From an uncultured Pelagibacteraceae bacterium (GTDB taxonomy: Bacteria; Pseudomonadota; Alphaproteobacteria; Pelagibacterales; Pelagibacteraceae), in NCBI GenBank assembly GCA_902522325.1, contig CABYVA010000012.1, forward strand, positions 1-32,534: a stretch of DNA of 32,534 nt. The letters are read 5' to 3'. Numbering within the stretch: the stretch's first letter is position 1; each line of letters opens with the position of its first letter. Shown here in pieces: positions 21,207 through 27,789 of the stretch. A program made the position numbers and the translations under genes. The notes below the pieces were generated by a model that saw only the letters and a list, made by a program, of their open reading frames with translations, made no database searches and was not told where the DNA came from.

Positions 21207-22130
21207 ATGAACAAAAAAATAGTTTTTATGGGAACATCAAGTTTTGCTGTACCTATTTTAAAGTCACTTTATCAAAATGGATATCCAATCTCTGTTGTTT
21301 ACACTCAACCGCCTAAAAAATCTAATAGAGGTTTAAAATTAGTTAAGTCACCAATAAATTTATTTTCTGAGAATATAAGCTTACATGTAAGAACTCCTCA
21401 ATCTTTAAAAAATAACAAGGAAGAAGAATTATACCTCACCGAATTAAAGCCAGATATTATTTTGGTAATTTCATTTGGTCAGATCATTCCTAAAAATCTT
21501 TTAAATATTCCAAAACATGGATTTTTAAATGTTCATGCTTCTTTACTACCAAAATGGAGAGGAGCGGCACCTATTCAAAGATCAATAATGAATTTAGATA
21601 AAGAGACAGGGATTAGCATTATGAGAATAAACGAAAATCTAGATGAGGGACCGGTTTGCAATCAATACTCTTTAAAAATTTCAGAAGAAATGAATTCTGA
21701 AGAATTGTCTGAACAATTATCATTAATAGCTTCAGAAAAGATTTTATATATTTTAGATAATATTGATGATGGTAATGTAGAATTTAAAGATCAAGATCAC
21801 TCCAAAGCAACCTATGCAAAAAAAATCCAAAAAATAGAAGGAAAAATTGATTGGAATGAAAATGCAGAAAAAATAATTGGAAAAATAAATGGACTTTATC
21901 CATATCCAGGCGCTTTTTTTTCATTTAATGGAGAAAGATATAAAATATTAAAAGCTGAAAAGTCTAGCACAACAGGAAAACCAGGGGATATAGTAAGTGA
22001 AAATTTTGAGATATGTTGTGGAGAAGGCTCAATAAAAGTACTAAGTATTCAAAGAGAAGGCAAAAGAGTTCAGCAAATAAATGAATTTTTACTTGGTACT
22101 CAAATTAAAAAAGGTACCAATATTGCTTAA
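21207..22130 (+). CDS. fmt: Methionyl-tRNA formyltransferase
   Basis: Formylates initiator Met-tRNA with 10-formyltetrahydrofolate. The 307-residue length is normal. The catalytic triad is visible as Asn108 and His110 in FLNVHASLLPKWRGAAPIQ and Asp146 in NENLDEGPV. The C-terminal OB-like domain starts around residue 205 (KIEGKIDWNE). Its stop shares a base with the truA start, so def, fmt and truA are one translational unit. Confidence 0.98.
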   Translation: MNKKIVFMGTSSFAVPILKSLYQNGYPISVVYTQPPKKSNRGLKLVKSPINLFSENISLHVRTPQSLKNNKEEELYLTELKPDIILVISFGQIIPKNLLNIPKHGFLNVHASLLPKWRGAAPIQRSIMNLDKETGISIMRINENLDEGPVCNQYSLKISEEMNSEELSEQLSLIASEKILYILDNIDDGNVEFKDQDHSKATYAKKIQKIEGKIDWNENAEKIIGKINGLYPYPGAFFSFNGERYKILKAEKSSTTGKPGDIVSENFEICCGEGSIKVLSIQREGKRVQQINEFLLGTQIKKGTNIA

Positions 22131-22870
22131 TGTATAGATATCAAATTTTGATTGAATATGTTGGAACTCCTTTCGTAGGTTGGCAAATACAAAAAAAAGG
22201 AAAATCTGTTCAAAAAACAAGTCAATCAATCCTGTCAAAATTATTGAAGCAAAAAATTATTTTATATTCTGCAGGGCGCACTGATCGTGAAGTTCACGCA
22301 ACGGAACAATCAGCTCATTTTGATGTTAAAAATAAAATACAAAATATAGATAAAATAATTAAATCTCTAAATTTTTTTTTAAGTCCAAAAAAAATTTCTA
22401 TAATTAATATTATTAAAAGAAATAAAAATTTTCATGCAAGGTATTCTGCAAAAGAGAGGATATACAGATATTTTATTATTAATCGTTTAGGCACACCTGT
22501 TATAGAAAATGAAAGAGCATGGCACATAAAAAAGAAACTAGATGTTAAATTATTAAAACAAGGAGCTAAAAAATTAGTAGGAACACATGACTTTAGTACA
22601 ATGAGAGCAAAAAATTGCTATGCTAAAAGTCCTATAAAAAAAATTAATAAAATAACTATAAAAAACATAAATAGTAAAATTGAAATTGAATTTAGATCAA
22701 AGTCTTTTTTAAGAAACCAGGTTAGATCAATGGTTGGATGTTTAAAATATTTAGCGGAAAAAAAATGGAATATTAAAAAATTTGAAAATGTCCTAAAATC
22801 AAAAAAAAGAAAAAATTGTGCACCACCAGCACCAGCCCACGGACTATATTTAGCAAAAGTTATTTATTAG
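22130..22870 (+). CDS. truA: tRNA pseudouridine(38-40) synthase
   Basis: Converts uridines 38-40 of the tRNA anticodon stem-loop to pseudouridine. The 246-residue protein has the N-terminal YQILIEYVGTPFVGWQIQ, the catalytic Asp52 in AGRTDREVHA, FHARYSAKERIYRYFI and the C-terminal FLRNQVRSMVGCL. The usual sequence after the catalytic Asp is AGVHA; here it is REVHA, so a near-invariant Gly is Glu, encoded beside two CG-type Arg codons (CGC, CGT) rare in this AGA-using genome. The rest is intact, so activity is likely but unproven. The stop region overlaps the convergent SET gene by 11 bases. Confidence 0.95.
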   Translation: MYRYQILIEYVGTPFVGWQIQKKGKSVQKTSQSILSKLLKQKIILYSAGRTDREVHATEQSAHFDVKNKIQNIDKIIKSLNFFLSPKKISIINIIKRNKNFHARYSAKERIYRYFIINRLGTPVIENERAWHIKKKLDVKLLKQGAKKLVGTHDFSTMRAKNCYAKSPIKKINKITIKNINSKIEIEFRSKSFLRNQVRSMVGCLKYLAEKKWNIKKFENVLKSKKRKNCAPPAPAHGLYLAKVIY

Positions 22871-23333
22871 TTCTATTGGATATTTTAAATCTTTTATTAA
22901 TCCTCCATCTGCTTGGTTCACGAACTATATAACCACAGCAGTTAACCGATCCACATTTACAAACAAAATTCTTAAGATCCTCTTTTGAATAAGAGAAACC
23001 ATAATCATAAGATAATTCTTCACCTTTTTTAATATCTTTAATTGCACTTATCCAAAGTTTAAGTCCTTTTCCTTCCACTTCACAGTTAGGGTTACAAGAA
23101 TGATTAATTAATCTAGCCGGATTCCAATGATAATTGCCATCTAGATCATATCTTTTATTTAAATTAAATAAGTAAATATCTTTTTCATTATCAAACTTTG
23201 GGTTGGTTTCCGTTTCTTTTTTGCTAATTAGCTTTCCAATATATTCAATAATTTTTTCTCCAGCTTTTATATTTTTTGAAGCACAAAGACCTTTTTTATC
23301 GATATTCGATTTTTTTATTTTATATAATTTCAC
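22860..23333 (-). CDS. SET-domain protein (putative protein lysine methyltransferase)
   Basis: A 157-residue protein that is almost only a SET domain plus post-SET motif. It shows the SAM-binding and pseudoknot segment RLINHSCNPNCE (residues 74-85), GEELSYDYGF (104-113, with catalytic Tyr111) and the post-SET zinc cluster CxCxxxxC (Cys125, Cys127, Cys132) that pairs with Cys80. All key SET residues appear present, so an active lysine methyltransferase is plausible; the target is unknown. It is the last gene of the long minus-strand block, 34 bp after an HDAC-family gene. SET proteins are mainly eukaryotic but known in scattered bacteria, so origin by old transfer is possible. Base composition matches its neighbours. 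Confidence 0.9.
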   Translation of the reverse strand: MKLYKIKKSNIDKKGLCASKNIKAGEKIIEYIGKLISKKETETNPKFDNEKDIYLFNLNKRYDLDGNYHWNPARLINHSCNPNCEVEGKGLKLWISAIKDIKKGEELSYDYGFSYSKEDLKNFVCKCGSVNCCGYIVREPSRWRINKRFKISNRTNK

Positions 23334-23367
23334 AAAAGCTATTTATAATATTGGATTAATTAATCAA

Positions 23368-24291
23368 TTAAAATTCTTGAAGTGCGTTAACATGTTCATT
23401 TGCACTTTCGGCAAGGGCGTTTAAGTCATATCCACCCTCTAGTACAGATACAACTTTTCCATTTGTAAACTTTTTTGTAGCCAATAATGTTCTTCGAGTA
23501 ATTTCATAAAAATCTTTTGATGACAATTCAAATTGTGCCAAAGGATCATCTTTATGCATATCAAAACCCATGCTAATAAGTAAAAATTCTGGCTTGAATT
23601 CAACTAATTTATTTAAAACTCTATCATGCGCGTTAAGATATTCCTCTGATGTTGTTCCTGCGGGAAGAGGGACATTAAAAATATTATTATGATTACCTTT
23701 TTCTTTTTCACTCCCAGTTCCAGGATAAAAAGGGTATTGATGTGTTGATAAATATAAAACATTTTTATTATCCCAAAAAATATTTTGATGGCCATTACCT
23801 TGATGGACATCTGGATCCCAAATTGCAACTCTTTTATAATTAAATTTTTCAATTAGATAATGTGCTGAGACTGCGCAATTATTATAGATACAAAAACCCA
23901 TAGCTTTATCTTTTTCACTATGGTGTCCAGGAGGGCGAACGGGACAAAAGGCATTTTTAAATTTTTTTTGCTCCACACCATCAATTGCTTTTATCACGGA
24001 ACCTACAGCATCAATTGTAGCATCTTTACTACCGGGCGAGATGACAGTGTCACCATCTAAAAATTTCATTCCCTCGCTTGGAAAACTTTTTTGAACCATA
24101 TTTATATAGTCTTCATCATGGGTTTTTTTTAAAATATTATGATCAAAGGTTGCTGGTTTATCCCAAATTAAATTCTTGTTTTTTTTTAGCCTTTCGGTAA
24201 TAGCTAATACTCTTTTAGGCTGCTCTGGATGACCATCACCGGTTAAATGATTTATCGATGTATCTGATGATATAATTGCTGTCTTATTCAC
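23368..24291 (-). CDS. Histone deacetylase-family (class II-like) deacetylase
   Basis: Zinc-dependent hydrolase of the HDAC/AcuC/acetylpolyamine amidohydrolase superfamily, 307 residues. The active-site features are RPPGHHSE (His123, His124), WDPDVHQGNGHQ (zinc ligands Asp161 and His163), STHQYPFYPGTG, MGFDMHKDDPLA (third ligand Asp244) and VLEGGYD (catalytic Tyr288). The residues needed for deacetylation are all present. Bacterial members deacetylate proteins, polyamines or other small molecules; the substrate cannot be called. The start codon overlaps the dapE stop by one base and the gene is followed by the SET gene, placing it firmly in the argB-dapDE transcription unit. Confidence 0.92.
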   Translation of the reverse strand: MNKTAIISSDTSINHLTGDGHPEQPKRVLAITERLKKNKNLIWDKPATFDHNILKKTHDEDYINMVQKSFPSEGMKFLDGDTVISPGSKDATIDAVGSVIKAIDGVEQKKFKNAFCPVRPPGHHSEKDKAMGFCIYNNCAVSAHYLIEKFNYKRVAIWDPDVHQGNGHQNIFWDNKNVLYLSTHQYPFYPGTGSEKEKGNHNNIFNVPLPAGTTSEEYLNAHDRVLNKLVEFKPEFLLISMGFDMHKDDPLAQFELSSKDFYEITRRTLLATKKFTNGKVVSVLEGGYDLNALAESANEHVNALQEF

Positions 24292-25445
24292 TAAAAATAA
24301 CTATCCAAAATATTAGAGTAAATCTTAGTTAATTTTTTTAAATCTTTTAAAGATACTGCTTCATCGACTTTATGCATAGTTTTCCCAACTAGACCAAATT
24401 CTAAACCGGGCGATATTGCTTTTATAAATCGCAAATCTGATGTTCCTCCCGTAGTGGATAACTTTGGTTTAATTTTCGTGATTTTTTTTACTATATTTTG
24501 TATCATAAAAGTTGTCTTGTTTGGTTTAGTTAAAAAAGGTTCACCGGAAACTCTATATTCAATTTTAAATCTAGATTTATTTTTTTTACTTATTTTATTA
24601 AAAATTTTATTAAGTTTTTTTTTAATAGATTTTGAAGAATGCCTGTTATTAAACCTTATATTGAATGTTGCTTCAGCTATTCCAGGAATAACATTATCAG
24701 CGTTATTATTAATATTTATTTTTGTTACCTCTAAGTTTGTTGGTTGAAAATCCTTAGTACCTTTATCAAACTTAATATTTTTTAATTTATTTAAAATTTT
24801 TATAAGTGTTGTTGAAGGGTTATTTGCTCTATGGGGATATGCAACATGACCCTGAACACCATTTATTGTGAGTTTACCAGTTAAACTTCCTCTTCTACCT
24901 ATTTTTATCATTTCACCTAACTTATTTGGATTTGTAGGCTCTCCAACTAGACAAAAGTTTATTTTTTCTTTTTTCCTTTTTAAATAATCTACAACTTTTT
25001 TAGTACCGTTGATTGCATCACCCTCCTCATCACCTGTTATTAATAAACTAATTGATCCATTAAATTTATTATTTTTTGCTAAAAAAAAACTTGCTGCTGA
25101 AACAAAAGCTGCGATTGAACTTTTCATATCATTGGCACCTCTACCTATTAAATGTCCTTTTTTTATGGATGGTTTAAAAGGATTTATTGTCCAATCTTTA
25201 ATATTACCTGGTGGTACCACGTCTAGATGCCCCGCATAACAAAAATTAGGTACTTTTGTTCCAATCCTTGCATATAGATTCTTAACAGGTTTGGAATTTT
25301 TTTCCTTAAATTCTAATATTTTTGTTTTGAAACCTAATTTTTTTAATTTTTTTTCTAAAAATTTCATAATCCCTGCATCAATTGGAGTAATTGAGGGGAA
25401 TTTGATTAGCTCTTTGGCTAATTGTAATTCATTAATCTTTTGCAT
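24291..25445 (-). CDS. dapE: Succinyl-diaminopimelate desuccinylase
   Basis: M20-family zinc amidohydrolase making LL-diaminopimelate in the succinylase branch of lysine/peptidoglycan precursor synthesis. At 384 residues it has normal length. Metal-binding motifs are FCYAGHLDVVPPG (about residues 68-80), GRGANDMKSSIAAF (about 96-109), TGDEEGDAINGTKK (about 131-144, catalytic Glu pair) and FCLVGEPTNP. The dimerisation domain has GRRGSLTGKLTINGVQGHVAYPH. The TGGTSDLRF and KTMHKVDE segments close the active site. It is two bases downstream of dapD, which makes the preceding pathway intermediate. Confidence 0.97.
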   Translation of the reverse strand: MQKINELQLAKELIKFPSITPIDAGIMKFLEKKLKKLGFKTKILEFKEKNSKPVKNLYARIGTKVPNFCYAGHLDVVPPGNIKDWTINPFKPSIKKGHLIGRGANDMKSSIAAFVSAASFFLAKNNKFNGSISLLITGDEEGDAINGTKKVVDYLKRKKEKINFCLVGEPTNPNKLGEMIKIGRRGSLTGKLTINGVQGHVAYPHRANNPSTTLIKILNKLKNIKFDKGTKDFQPTNLEVTKININNNADNVIPGIAEATFNIRFNNRHSSKSIKKKLNKIFNKISKKNKSRFKIEYRVSGEPFLTKPNKTTFMIQNIVKKITKIKPKLSTTGGTSDLRFIKAISPGLEFGLVGKTMHKVDEAVSLKDLKKLTKIYSNILDSYF

Positions 25446-25447
25446 AA

Positions 25448-26251
25448 TTAATCTCTTAAAAGATCGTTAATTGATGTTTTGGAACGTGTTTTTGAATCAA
25501 CTGTTTTAATTATATGAACAGCATAAAGATCTTTGTAAGTACCTGGTACCACAACCGAATAAGGCGGTATACGACCTTTTGTAACTTCTCCATTTGATCT
25601 ATTTACAATTTTTGTGCTTTGTCCAATATAGCATCCCATTGAAAGAACACTTCCTTCCTCTACAATTACGCCTTCAACAACTTCGGACATTGCTCCTACA
25701 AAAACATTATCTTCAATGATAGTTGGCAGTGCTTGAGCGGGCTCCAAGACGCCCCCAATTCCTGATCCAGCAGATATATGACAATTTTCTCCAATTTGAC
25801 AACAGCTTCCAGCCCTACTGAAAGTATCCATCATAGTTCCTGCCCCAATGTACGCTCCAATGTTTACATAACATGGCATAAGAACAGCATTCTTTCCAAT
25901 AAACGATCCTTTTCTAACAGGAGAGTTTGGAACCATCCTAAAGCCTGCTTTTTCAAATTCTTCTTTTGTCCATCCAGCAGTTTTTCCTTTTAATAAATTT
26001 TGACGGTCTCTCCATACTGAATATGGCCCTGAAAGAATATCATTTTCATAAACTCTAAAACTTAGCATGATAGCTTTTTTAAGATGTTGATGGGTTTTCC
26101 ATTCACCATTAATTTTTTCTGCAACACGAGACTTACCACTGTCTAAATCACTAATTACTTGATTTATTGCATCTTTTAAAGACTGATCTGAATTTTTATT
26201 TACTTGATCTTTATTTTCCCAAGCATCATTTATAATTTTTTCTATAGACAT
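25448..26251 (-). CDS. dapD: Tetrahydrodipicolinate N-succinyltransferase
   Basis: Transfers succinyl from succinyl-CoA to tetrahydrodipicolinate in lysine and diaminopimelate synthesis. It has 267 residues, the usual size. An N-terminal helical domain is followed by left-handed beta-helix hexapeptide repeats (about residues 115-225: the NIGAYIGAGTMMDTFSRAG region, GSGIGGVLEP, VVVPG near the end). It sits directly before dapE, so two enzymes of the lysine pathway are coupled, with argB and a phosphatase upstream in the same unit. Confidence 0.97.
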   Translation of the reverse strand: MSIEKIINDAWENKDQVNKNSDQSLKDAINQVISDLDSGKSRVAEKINGEWKTHQHLKKAIMLSFRVYENDILSGPYSVWRDRQNLLKGKTAGWTKEEFEKAGFRMVPNSPVRKGSFIGKNAVLMPCYVNIGAYIGAGTMMDTFSRAGSCCQIGENCHISAGSGIGGVLEPAQALPTIIEDNVFVGAMSEVVEGVIVEEGSVLSMGCYIGQSTKIVNRSNGEVTKGRIPPYSVVVPGTYKDLYAVHIIKTVDSKTRSKTSINDLLRD

Positions 26252-26254
26252 AAG

Positions 26255-26944
26255 TTATTTACTTTTTAATAACCTTATTTCTTTAAGAAATAAAGACAGA
26301 TTTTTAATTTTGTGTGAAATATAATCTTTATCAGAGTCCATCTTTCCAAAATGTTCATCGTTAATTAACCAAACAGTTGTACATCCTCTTTCGAAGCCAA
26401 TACCAAGATTTCTTGCAATATCTTCAATATAAATAGTTTCTTTTGGATTAATGCCAAATTTATTGACCATTTTATCAAAGGTTTTTGCATTAGGTTTTGG
26501 CACATATCCCGCATCTTGAATGTCAAAGACTTTTTCTCTTCCAAATAAGTCATATACTCCAAGATGGGTTAAAATATTTTCAGCGTGTTCAGCACTACCA
26601 TTGGTAAAAATAAATTTTTCCATATTTAATTGTTCAAGTTCATTTCTCATAACTTTATCCTCTTTCATAAATGAAATATCTACATCATGAACGAATTTCA
26701 AGAATTCTTCTCCGATAACATTATGATTCAACATAAGCCCATTTAATGAGGTATTATATTTATAGAAATAGTTTGTTTGAAGTTCCTTTGCCTCTTTATC
26801 GTTTAAATTTAGTTTTTCTTTTATGAATAAAGTCATTCGATTAGAAATCATCCCAAAAACCTTATCTAATGGGTAACCGTTATGTGAACCATAACAAACC
26901 CCATCAAGATCGAGCAAAAGGTACTTTTTGTTCTTAAAATTCAT
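26255..26944 (-). CDS. HAD-superfamily phosphatase (pyrimidine 5'-nucleotidase type)
   Basis: A 229-residue haloacid dehalogenase-superfamily hydrolase of the subfamily annotated as pyrimidine 5'-nucleotidase, which alphaproteobacteria often encode between argB and dapD. Motif I is LDLDGVCY (Asp12 nucleophile, Asp14), motif II IFTNG (about residues 110-114), the motif III lysine lies in VPKPNAKTF (about 146-154) and motif IV is IYIEDIARN (about 168-176). The family's LY..S..LF..I..RM cap segment is present as CYGSHNGYPLDKVFGMISNRM with Cys in place of Leu. It starts inside the argB stop (4-base overlap). The natural substrate is uncertain. Confidence 0.88.
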   Translation of the reverse strand: MNFKNKKYLLLDLDGVCYGSHNGYPLDKVFGMISNRMTLFIKEKLNLNDKEAKELQTNYFYKYNTSLNGLMLNHNVIGEEFLKFVHDVDISFMKEDKVMRNELEQLNMEKFIFTNGSAEHAENILTHLGVYDLFGREKVFDIQDAGYVPKPNAKTFDKMVNKFGINPKETIYIEDIARNLGIGFERGCTTVWLINDEHFGKMDSDKDYISHKIKNLSLFLKEIRLLKSK

Positions 26945-27789
26945 TTTCTTAACAAAGTTCCAGCACCTGTGTCAGTAAATATTTCAAATAAGCATGCGTG
27001 AGATACTCGGGCATCAACTATTGCAACACCAGTAACGCCATTATTTACAGCATCAATACTTGTTTTGATTTTAGGTATCATTCCACCTGAAATAGTTCCA
27101 TCACTTATCATTTCATTTGCAGCAGTAGAATTAATTTCTGGAATGAGTTTTTTATTTTTATCTAAAACACCTTCTATATTTGTCATTAAAAGTAATCTTC
27201 TTGATTTTAAAGACTTTGCTATAGCACCTGCTGCTGTATCTCCATTTATATTGTATGTTTGATTATTATTTCCTAAGCCTAGAGGAGAGATGATAGGAAT
27301 CATTTTTTTTTTTAATATATTTTTTATAATATCATTATTAATTTTATATGGCTTTCCAACAAAACCTAGCTCTTCTGACTCAGGAACAACTTCAATGACA
27401 TTATTTTTTTTGGTGTTTATAGAAACAGCTTCAGTTCCTTTTTTTTTAAGAGAATTAACAATATCATCGTTAAAATCAATTAGTACGCTCTCAACAATGT
27501 TTATAATTTTTTTATCTGTGACTCTTAAACCTCTTATAAATTTAGTTTGAATATTTGACTTATCCAATTCTTTTTTTATTCTTGGTCCACCACCATGAAC
27601 AACTACAATTGATATTCCTAGTTTATTTAATGTACTTATATCTGCTATAAAATTATTAAATATATTTCTATCAATAAAAACATTTCCACCGTATTTTATA
27701 ACAATTAACTCATTTTTATATTTTTCAATATATTTAGATACTTGTTCTATTGGCGGTCCATCGATTGGTAAAATATTTTCAAATTTCAT
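26941..27789 (-). CDS. argB: Acetylglutamate kinase
   Basis: Second step of arginine synthesis, phosphorylating N-acetylglutamate. The 282-residue protein has the amino-acid kinase fold: IVIKYGGNVFID (about residues 30-41), VVVHGGGPRIKKEL (about 62-75), SINTKKNN, SPLGLGNNNQTYNINGDTAAGAIA (about 173-196) and GMIPKIKTSIDAV near the C-terminus. It is 16 bp downstream of yidC and overlaps the HAD gene by four bases. Many alphaproteobacteria have the GTPase gene engB/yihA between yidC and argB; it is absent here. Confidence 0.97.
   Translation of the reverse strand: MKFENILPIDGPPIEQVSKYIEKYKNELIVIKYGGNVFIDRNIFNNFIADISTLNKLGISIVVVHGGGPRIKKELDKSNIQTKFIRGLRVTDKKIINIVESVLIDFNDDIVNSLKKKGTEAVSINTKKNNVIEVVPESEELGFVGKPYKINNDIIKNILKKKMIPIISPLGLGNNNQTYNINGDTAAGAIAKSLKSRRLLLMTNIEGVLDKNKKLIPEINSTAANEMISDGTISGGMIPKIKTSIDAVNNGVTGVAIVDARVSHACLFEIFTDTGAGTLLRK

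Follow-up and report, generated by a model that had tools for sequence, protein, structure and literature searches.

The window analyzed here is the whole stretch of 32,534 nucleotides (nt) of contig CABYVA010000012.1, from an uncultured Pelagibacteraceae (SAR11) bacterium. It carries two neighboring genes, one for a SET-domain methyltransferase of 157 amino acids (aa) that consists of a SET and a post-SET region with no further domain found (22860..23333, minus strand), and one for an HDAC-family zinc deacylase of 307 aa that is contiguous and has all of its catalytic residues (23368..24291, minus strand). Both assignments come from open reading frames (ORFs), Pfam profiles, alignments, and structure models. 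An earlier note on this DNA had described the two genes as neighbors on the same strand, 34 base pairs (bp) apart, with intact catalytic motifs and at the end of a lysine/arginine gene run. The ORF coordinates bore out the arrangement, the motif positions and the alignments of relatives bore out the motifs, and argB, dapD, and dapE were found upstream. The two genes do form a neighboring pair that is kept in genomes close to the window, and each is an ordinary gene by itself; a hairpin insert that interrupts the HDAC gene of relatives is the more surprising observation.

The SET protein scored 86.4 bits against PF00856 (cut-off 22.4) and contains NHSCNPN at residues 77-83, YDYG at 109-112, and the post-SET cysteines C125-x-C127-x4-C132. 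Asn77, His78, Cys80, Tyr111, Cys125, Cys127, and Cys132 are invariant in all 32 aligned rows. Comparison of the gene with those of seven relatives gave ratios of nonsynonymous to synonymous substitution rates (dN/dS) of 0.07-0.17, which are rough values with dS above 1, and the gene is under purifying selection. The structure model, with a predicted local distance difference test (pLDDT) score of 87, matched best the SET domains of MLL1 and MLL3 bound in complexes to H3K4 peptides, with Z 16.4-16.6 and, over 134-135 residues, 34% identity, and the best sequence match in the PDB was KMT2C (1.3e-22). Eukaryotic enzymes are abundant in the PDB, which bears on KMT2 as the nearest match, and the likeness therefore indicates a peptide-lysine methyltransferase architecture and not a eukaryotic origin. 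The MLL/KMT2 (COMPASS) SET domains 7w67 and 7w6l share with the window protein the SET and post-SET fold, the motif NHSCxPN, and a Tyr two residues before the catalytic Tyr, with 34% identity over 135 residues, whereas the window protein stands alone at 157 aa and the MLL/KMT2 proteins have many domains. In the alignment, several relatives have Cys in place of the window protein's Tyr two residues ahead of the catalytic Tyr; a Tyr at this position favors the transfer of one or two methyl groups. The sole NCBIfam match was to AnkI/LegAS4 (Legionella RomA/LegAS4), at 4.5e-6 and 25.7 bits (cut-off 550), and the 13 pattern stretches obtained in the search for viral SET relatives included none that is related. 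Bacterial SET genes are held to be bacterial in origin in a review (PMC3980110), and the legend of a figure on the HIMB59 clade mentions a SET-domain gene (PMC10734472).

The HDAC protein scored 291.4 bits over the full PF00850 model (cut-off 27.9) and contains HH at residues 123-124, DVH at 161-163, GFD at 242-244, and EGGY at 285-288, with H123, H124, D161, H163, D244, and Y288 invariant in 22 of 22 aligned rows. The stretch that reads DVHHGNGTQ in most rows is DVHQGNGHQ in the window protein and in L188. The structure model (pLDDT 95) was nearest to 5ji5 and the lysine deacylase 5zmp (template modeling scores by query of 0.94 and 0.91), followed by HDAC4, HDAC6, HDA15, and the bacterial HDAH. 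The compact bacterial lysine deacylases 5ji5 and 5zmp resemble the window protein in size and fold at 35-37% identity; 5ji5 is a structure that is not known to have a tested substrate. A distant second HDAC paralogue is present in many genomes of the family, and the copy in G158 has a stop codon (L174:2372-3154). In G210, the HDAC gene is reduced to the first 38 or so codons and a short tail, which lie between dapE and an intact SET gene (L146).

Both genes have GTG start codons and lie between dapE, which encodes succinyl-diaminopimelate desuccinylase (24291..25445, minus strand; Pfam/NCBIfam) and shares the last base of its stop codon with the HDAC start, and the convergent truA (22130..22870, plus strand; Pfam/NCBIfam), which the 3′ end of the SET gene overlaps by 11 bp. 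SET and HDAC are probably co-transcribed. SET was found in 215 of 247 genomes of the order and in 50 of 308 genomes of the class, and HDAC in 237 of the 247, a count that takes in the distant second paralogue. The named loci with the closest SET relatives (the best 80 of 314) had HDAC directly upstream of SET in 71 cases, three of them with an interrupted HDAC gene, and dapE directly upstream of SET with no HDAC in five. A transporter gene of the SBF (sodium/bile acid symporter) family, an assignment based on L074, stands between the two genes in another two loci (L074:4022-4870, L081:5106-6000); SET lies elsewhere in one locus, and the last is a contig end. L064, a contig labeled as a Cytophagales metagenome-assembled genome, has the SAR11 gene order and a SET protein 81% identical, and is probably a misplaced SAR11 contig.

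Searches with the window HDAC (tblastn, up to 1.5 kb) gave no HDAC near SET in 24 of 24 sister-family loci or in 26 of 26 other alphaproteobacterial loci, and in several sister-family genomes the two genes lie about 60 kb apart on the same contig. Among genomes of genus g5 for which the best places of both genes were listed, four have them adjacent (G070, G136, G219, G242) and eleven have them on different contigs; in two of these eleven, G189 and G198, dapE adjoins SET and HDAC is absent there. HDAC stands behind dapE without SET in G036, G211, G164, G217, G234, G009, G109, and G097, both genes are missing from the dapE site in G054, G158, and G032, and they are apart in G001 and G007. In the genomes examined from g3, g4, and g6, the site either holds HDAC behind dapE and lacks SET or lacks both genes, and in those from g2, SET is far from the site. 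The link between dapE and HDAC is wider than that between HDAC and SET. The earlier note had raised the question of whether the adjacency is conserved across Pelagibacterales and outside; it extends well beyond this genome but is not conserved across the order, belongs to one family in the loci examined, is strongest near the window, and does not persist as a unit.

The interpretation that we favor, with moderate confidence, is that in a single family of SAR11 two independently kept protein-lysine modifier genes stand where dapE meets truA. The SET protein would be a minimal SET and post-SET enzyme that most likely adds one or two methyl groups to a lysine of a cellular protein, and the HDAC protein would be a zinc-dependent amidohydrolase that most likely strips acyl groups from protein lysines. 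Catalytic activity and the class of substrate are probable for both, as is the degree of methylation for the SET protein, and the two genes would share an operon end with neither depending on the other. Several observations weigh against this interpretation. In the window's genus, the two genes are hardly ever separated, which is what one would expect of a functional pair; among the genus genomes examined, G036 is the only one with an assembled dapE locus that has HDAC and lacks SET, and G210 the only one in which SET is accompanied by a mere HDAC remnant. Moreover, SET is not always whole, as the ORF of G161 has 106 aa that cover residues 1-103 and lacks the post-SET region (L173:3046-3366). 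The SET-less genomes of the genus were also considered as cases of co-loss, and this was dropped when five of the six listed (G103, G128, G159, G163, G246) were found to lack a close dapE match as well; with no such match in those five, only G036 is informative on the loss of SET.

The earlier note had suggested that the two proteins could form a methylation/deacetylation pair acting on a nucleoid or ribosomal protein. In such cooperation, HDAC would deacetylate particular lysines that SET would then methylate. The gene order kept in most of the closest loci argues for such cooperation, and it has a precedent in Legionella, which likewise has a SET protein (RomA/LegAS4) and an HDAC protein (LphD) in one bacterium, and in which deacetylation of host H3K14 by LphD allows RomA to methylate it (PMC10104843). 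The Legionella proteins, however, are secreted effectors acting on host H3K14 (PMC10104843), and LphD has GLPSHH where the window HDAC has RPPGHH (PMC11532494). Since each gene occurs at the dapE site without the other, joint function is not required and a strict dependence of the LphD/RomA type is disfavored; the two genes are also apart in the sister-family loci and the loci outside the order that were examined. No common partner or theme emerged from the other SET neighborhoods examined in the sister family and g2, which contain genes for O-antigen ligase, UDP-sugar dehydrogenase, rhodanese, a phosphatase, a transporter, or GcrA. Joint function is possible in the light of the precedent, and cooperation of this kind appears unlikely. 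We consider it similarly doubtful that the HDAC substrate is a small acylated amine from the metabolism of lysine/arginine or of polyamines, with SET being unrelated. The overlap of the HDAC start with the dapE stop in the window and the extension of the dapE–HDAC adjacency to SET-less genomes are consistent with such a substrate, but the nearest structures are a lysine deacylase (5zmp), 5ji5, and enzymes of the HDAC4/HDAC6 type. Leu251, which follows GFD, aligns with the Leu of HDAC6 domain 2, the comparison being with HDAC6; HDAC10 has a Glu gatekeeper at what would be the equivalent position. Bacterial polyamine deacetylases form a separate cluster, cluster 4, among five bacterial clusters (PMC11532494).

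For SET, methylation of a small molecule would have a parallel in BurB, a bacterial protein of the same fold that methylates methionine at sulfur on the way to dimethylsulfoniopropionate (PMC12542666). This is very improbable for the window protein, as its best matches in sequence and fold are histone-peptide methyltransferases and its post-SET cysteines are invariant. BurB (9L4T/9L4V) was absent among the 50-60 matches listed in the sequence and fold searches, which does not exclude a likeness to it. Among the open-access papers listed (preprints excluded), we found no study of SET or HDAC function in SAR11. SAR11 organisms are not known to have histones, and the presence of both enzymes as neighbors in such abundant ocean bacteria offers a simple setting for "chromatin" enzymes without chromatin and for the question of a bacterial coupling between lysine methylation and deacetylation.

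In relatives of the window, first noticed for their short HDAC, the HDAC gene is split into two frames after Pro-Pro-Gly and before the catalytic His-His. The corresponding point in the window is marked by the codons GGA CAC of Gly122-His123 (23923..23928, minus strand), where the gene is uninterrupted; a model built from the insert gave no match in the window's own genome. The interruption is present in at least eight genomes (G142, L093, G260, G044, G300, G416, G543, G236), with sites at L143:1565-1623, L144:1453-1511, L145:2473-2533, L183:1351-1409, L184:2781-2839, L185:757-815, L186:1473-1531, and L093:5388-5446. A scan with the insert model, in which the filters lose weak matches, found it in at least 6 of 399 genomes of the genus. 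The layout reads CCGCCTGGG, then 41 nt (43 in G236), then GGACATCAY, placed between GGG and GGA, and the insert can fold into a stem with 11-15 pairs. Of the 17 modeled stem pairs, 6 are changed on both sides with pairing kept when the eight rows are compared, and three are broken in G236. By sequence, the rows make up about three groups and so stand for few independent events. On a tree of the downstream-half protein (95 rows, 8 interrupted), four gains or losses are needed, and the well-supported branches force four.

Several observations make the interrupted gene look functional. Both of its halves are under purifying selection: in the five pairs of interrupted copies that were compared, dN/dS was 0.04-0.18 upstream and 0.025-0.16 downstream of the insert. 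The downstream half has no ATG until past the HH dyad, and yet the eight codons from the landing codon to that ATG, which include HH, show 46 synonymous against 14 other pairwise differences among seven distinct rows. Immediately before the insert, CCG CCT GGG is found in 10 of 10 interrupted rows (eight genomes, two of them represented twice) and in none of 91 uninterrupted rows. In comparisons with close relatives that lack the insert, the 60 nt just before it are 70-83% identical and other upstream windows 80-97%; this last window is the least identical in seven of eight comparisons, with its amino acids largely kept. It is as if the RNA matters there or the stretch had moved together with the insert.

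Models built from the insert led to six further inserts of the same layout, two each in trxA and infA and one each in exonuclease I and an unnamed gene, every gene being affected in a single genome; all four genes are uninterrupted in relatives. The trxA gene of G302 (L232:5590-5987, minus strand) encodes a thioredoxin that is conserved apart from the inserts and has one insert between DFW and AEW (25 nt, TGG/TGC, 5-pair stem), which fits least well, and another between KFG and VRG (43 nt, GGG/GGA). In G309, exonuclease I (L287:361-1842, minus strand) is interrupted in its motif NIGFDDE, between NIG and FDDE, by a 48-nt hairpin gap with an in-frame TAG and GGG/GGA; its downstream half matches exodeoxyribonuclease I at positions 105-475 of 477 with 110.8 bits against a cut-off of 260, and its upstream half has no Pfam or NCBIfam match. 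In G371, infA (IF-1; L292:1438-1768, minus strand) has inserts between KLR and KNR (44 nt, AGG/AGA) and between LQG and DNV (50 nt, GGG/GGA); its halves match IF-1 models, and the gene stays beside tRNA-Phe and tRNA-His. The unnamed gene of G371, on the same contig and beside exonuclease I (L293:1324-2080, minus strand), is interrupted between LQLG and AYTL (40 nt, GGG/GGA) and is contiguous in G142 and G309; its upstream half has no Pfam or NCBIfam match and its downstream half no Pfam match. The insert-model scores outside HDAC are weak in themselves (23.7, 17.7, 23.2, and 16.2 bits); the strength of these cases lies in the precise interruption of genes that relatives have in one piece. Each is known from one genome of limited completeness (52% for G371), in which a second, intact copy is possible. 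Inserts often lie in conserved motifs of the interrupted genes. The seven distinct insert sites all share one codon phase, an outcome for which random phase would give a chance of (1/3)^6 = 0.0014, a value to be read with the sites having been parsed by eye and the pairs within one gene not being independent. At all seven, the take-off and landing codons agree in their first two bases and differ in the third.

These observations raise the possibility that a family of mobile hairpin elements, small in size, interrupts conserved SAR11 chromosomal genes, has repeatedly targeted this HDAC, and is skipped by programmed translational bypassing, a proposal for which we consider the case evenly balanced. 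The ribosome would leave at GGG (or AGG, TGG), pass a gap of 25-50 nt, and resume after the matching GGA (AGA, TGC), and the selection on both halves of HDAC hints indirectly that one protein may be made from them. Bypassing of the kind known from phage T4 gene 60 would account jointly for the gap remainders, the codon phase, the matching codons, the hairpin, and the selection. In T4 gene 60 and the byp elements of yeast mitochondria, halves of a gene are likewise joined over a short noncoding hairpin gap, take-off and landing codons correspond to each other, and a UAG follows soon after take-off in several (PMC5009743, PMC8211752). In contrast, take-off and landing codons of the T4 type are identical (GGA/GGA), whereas those of the SAR11 inserts are GGG/GGA, AGG/AGA, or TGG/TGC and are not. 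Unlike T4 gene 60 and byp, the SAR11 inserts lie in chromosomal genes of free-living bacteria, and their joined product is a predicted one.

Other explanations of the insert were weighed against the same observations. A common −1 or +1 frameshift was rejected as the gap remainders differ (2 for 41 nt, 1 for 43 nt), and in the G142 and G236 types it is also countered by stop codons of the downstream frame inside the gap; in the G044 type, where the downstream frame is open across the gap, a frameshift is possible. Restart at the downstream ATG was rejected as the whole story, given that the codons before it, including the catalytic HH, differ mostly silently. Decay into a pseudogene is possible for the interrupted HDAC, but the low dN/dS of the downstream half in all five pairs speaks against it. 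Duplication of a two-base target would be a trivial source of the matching codons but does not account for the codon phase. Excision of the insert at the RNA or DNA level is possible, as is its being tolerated damage.

T4 gene 60 is the one example of bypassing that has been studied well; besides it, there are a mitochondrial family and few, poorly followed bacterial or phage reports (PMC5009743), and no study of bypassing in SAR11 was found among the open-access papers listed, preprints again excluded. If the proposal is true, abundant bacteria with a free-living way of life would natively decode genes by bypassing, and some genes regarded as broken in their genomes may in fact work. The insert would then outweigh the SET–HDAC pair in importance, and the several sites in conserved SAR11 genes would make its mechanism and spread directly testable.

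Wider searches for inserts yielded few additional cases. Applied to 40 more genomes, the insert model gave two matches, both in G371 and both in interrupted genes; of 13 further matches, that in exonuclease I lies in an interrupted gene and the rest are intergenic, terminator-like, or in open frames. Scanning 41 stretches, as well as the window, for hairpins gave 24 candidate parses, of which the convincing ones were all known already, and a comparison of split genes (G302 C2, G142 C3, 40 kb of G300 C1, and the window) gave eight candidates, of which two HDAC inserts were convincing. In a trxA survey of 201 genomes, 133 of which had no match at 1e-8, G302 was the only one of the 68 with a match whose frame was down to 50 aa; the frames of G046, G322, and G328 had 78-100 aa.

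The source assembly (G000) comprises 0.99 Mb in 51 contigs and is 87% complete. PF00856 and PF00850 each have one match in it (E ≤ 0.001), and no second SET or HDAC was found at this threshold. The ORF listing and Pfam/NCBIfam searches place the pair at the end of a minus-strand run of argB, a HAD hydrolase gene, dapD, dapE, HDAC, and SET, with successive spacings of −4, +3, +2, −1, and +34 bp. Beyond dapE, this run consists of dapD for tetrahydrodipicolinate N-succinyltransferase (25448..26251), the HAD hydrolase gene, whose product is nearest to pyrimidine 5′-nucleotidase and just below the cut-off of that model (26255..26944), and argB for acetylglutamate kinase (26941..27789), all on the minus strand and assigned by Pfam/NCBIfam. 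An HSP20 gene takes the usual place of SET beside HDAC in G036 (L147:3077-3571) and lies between truA and HDAC in G234 (L172:2595-3059).

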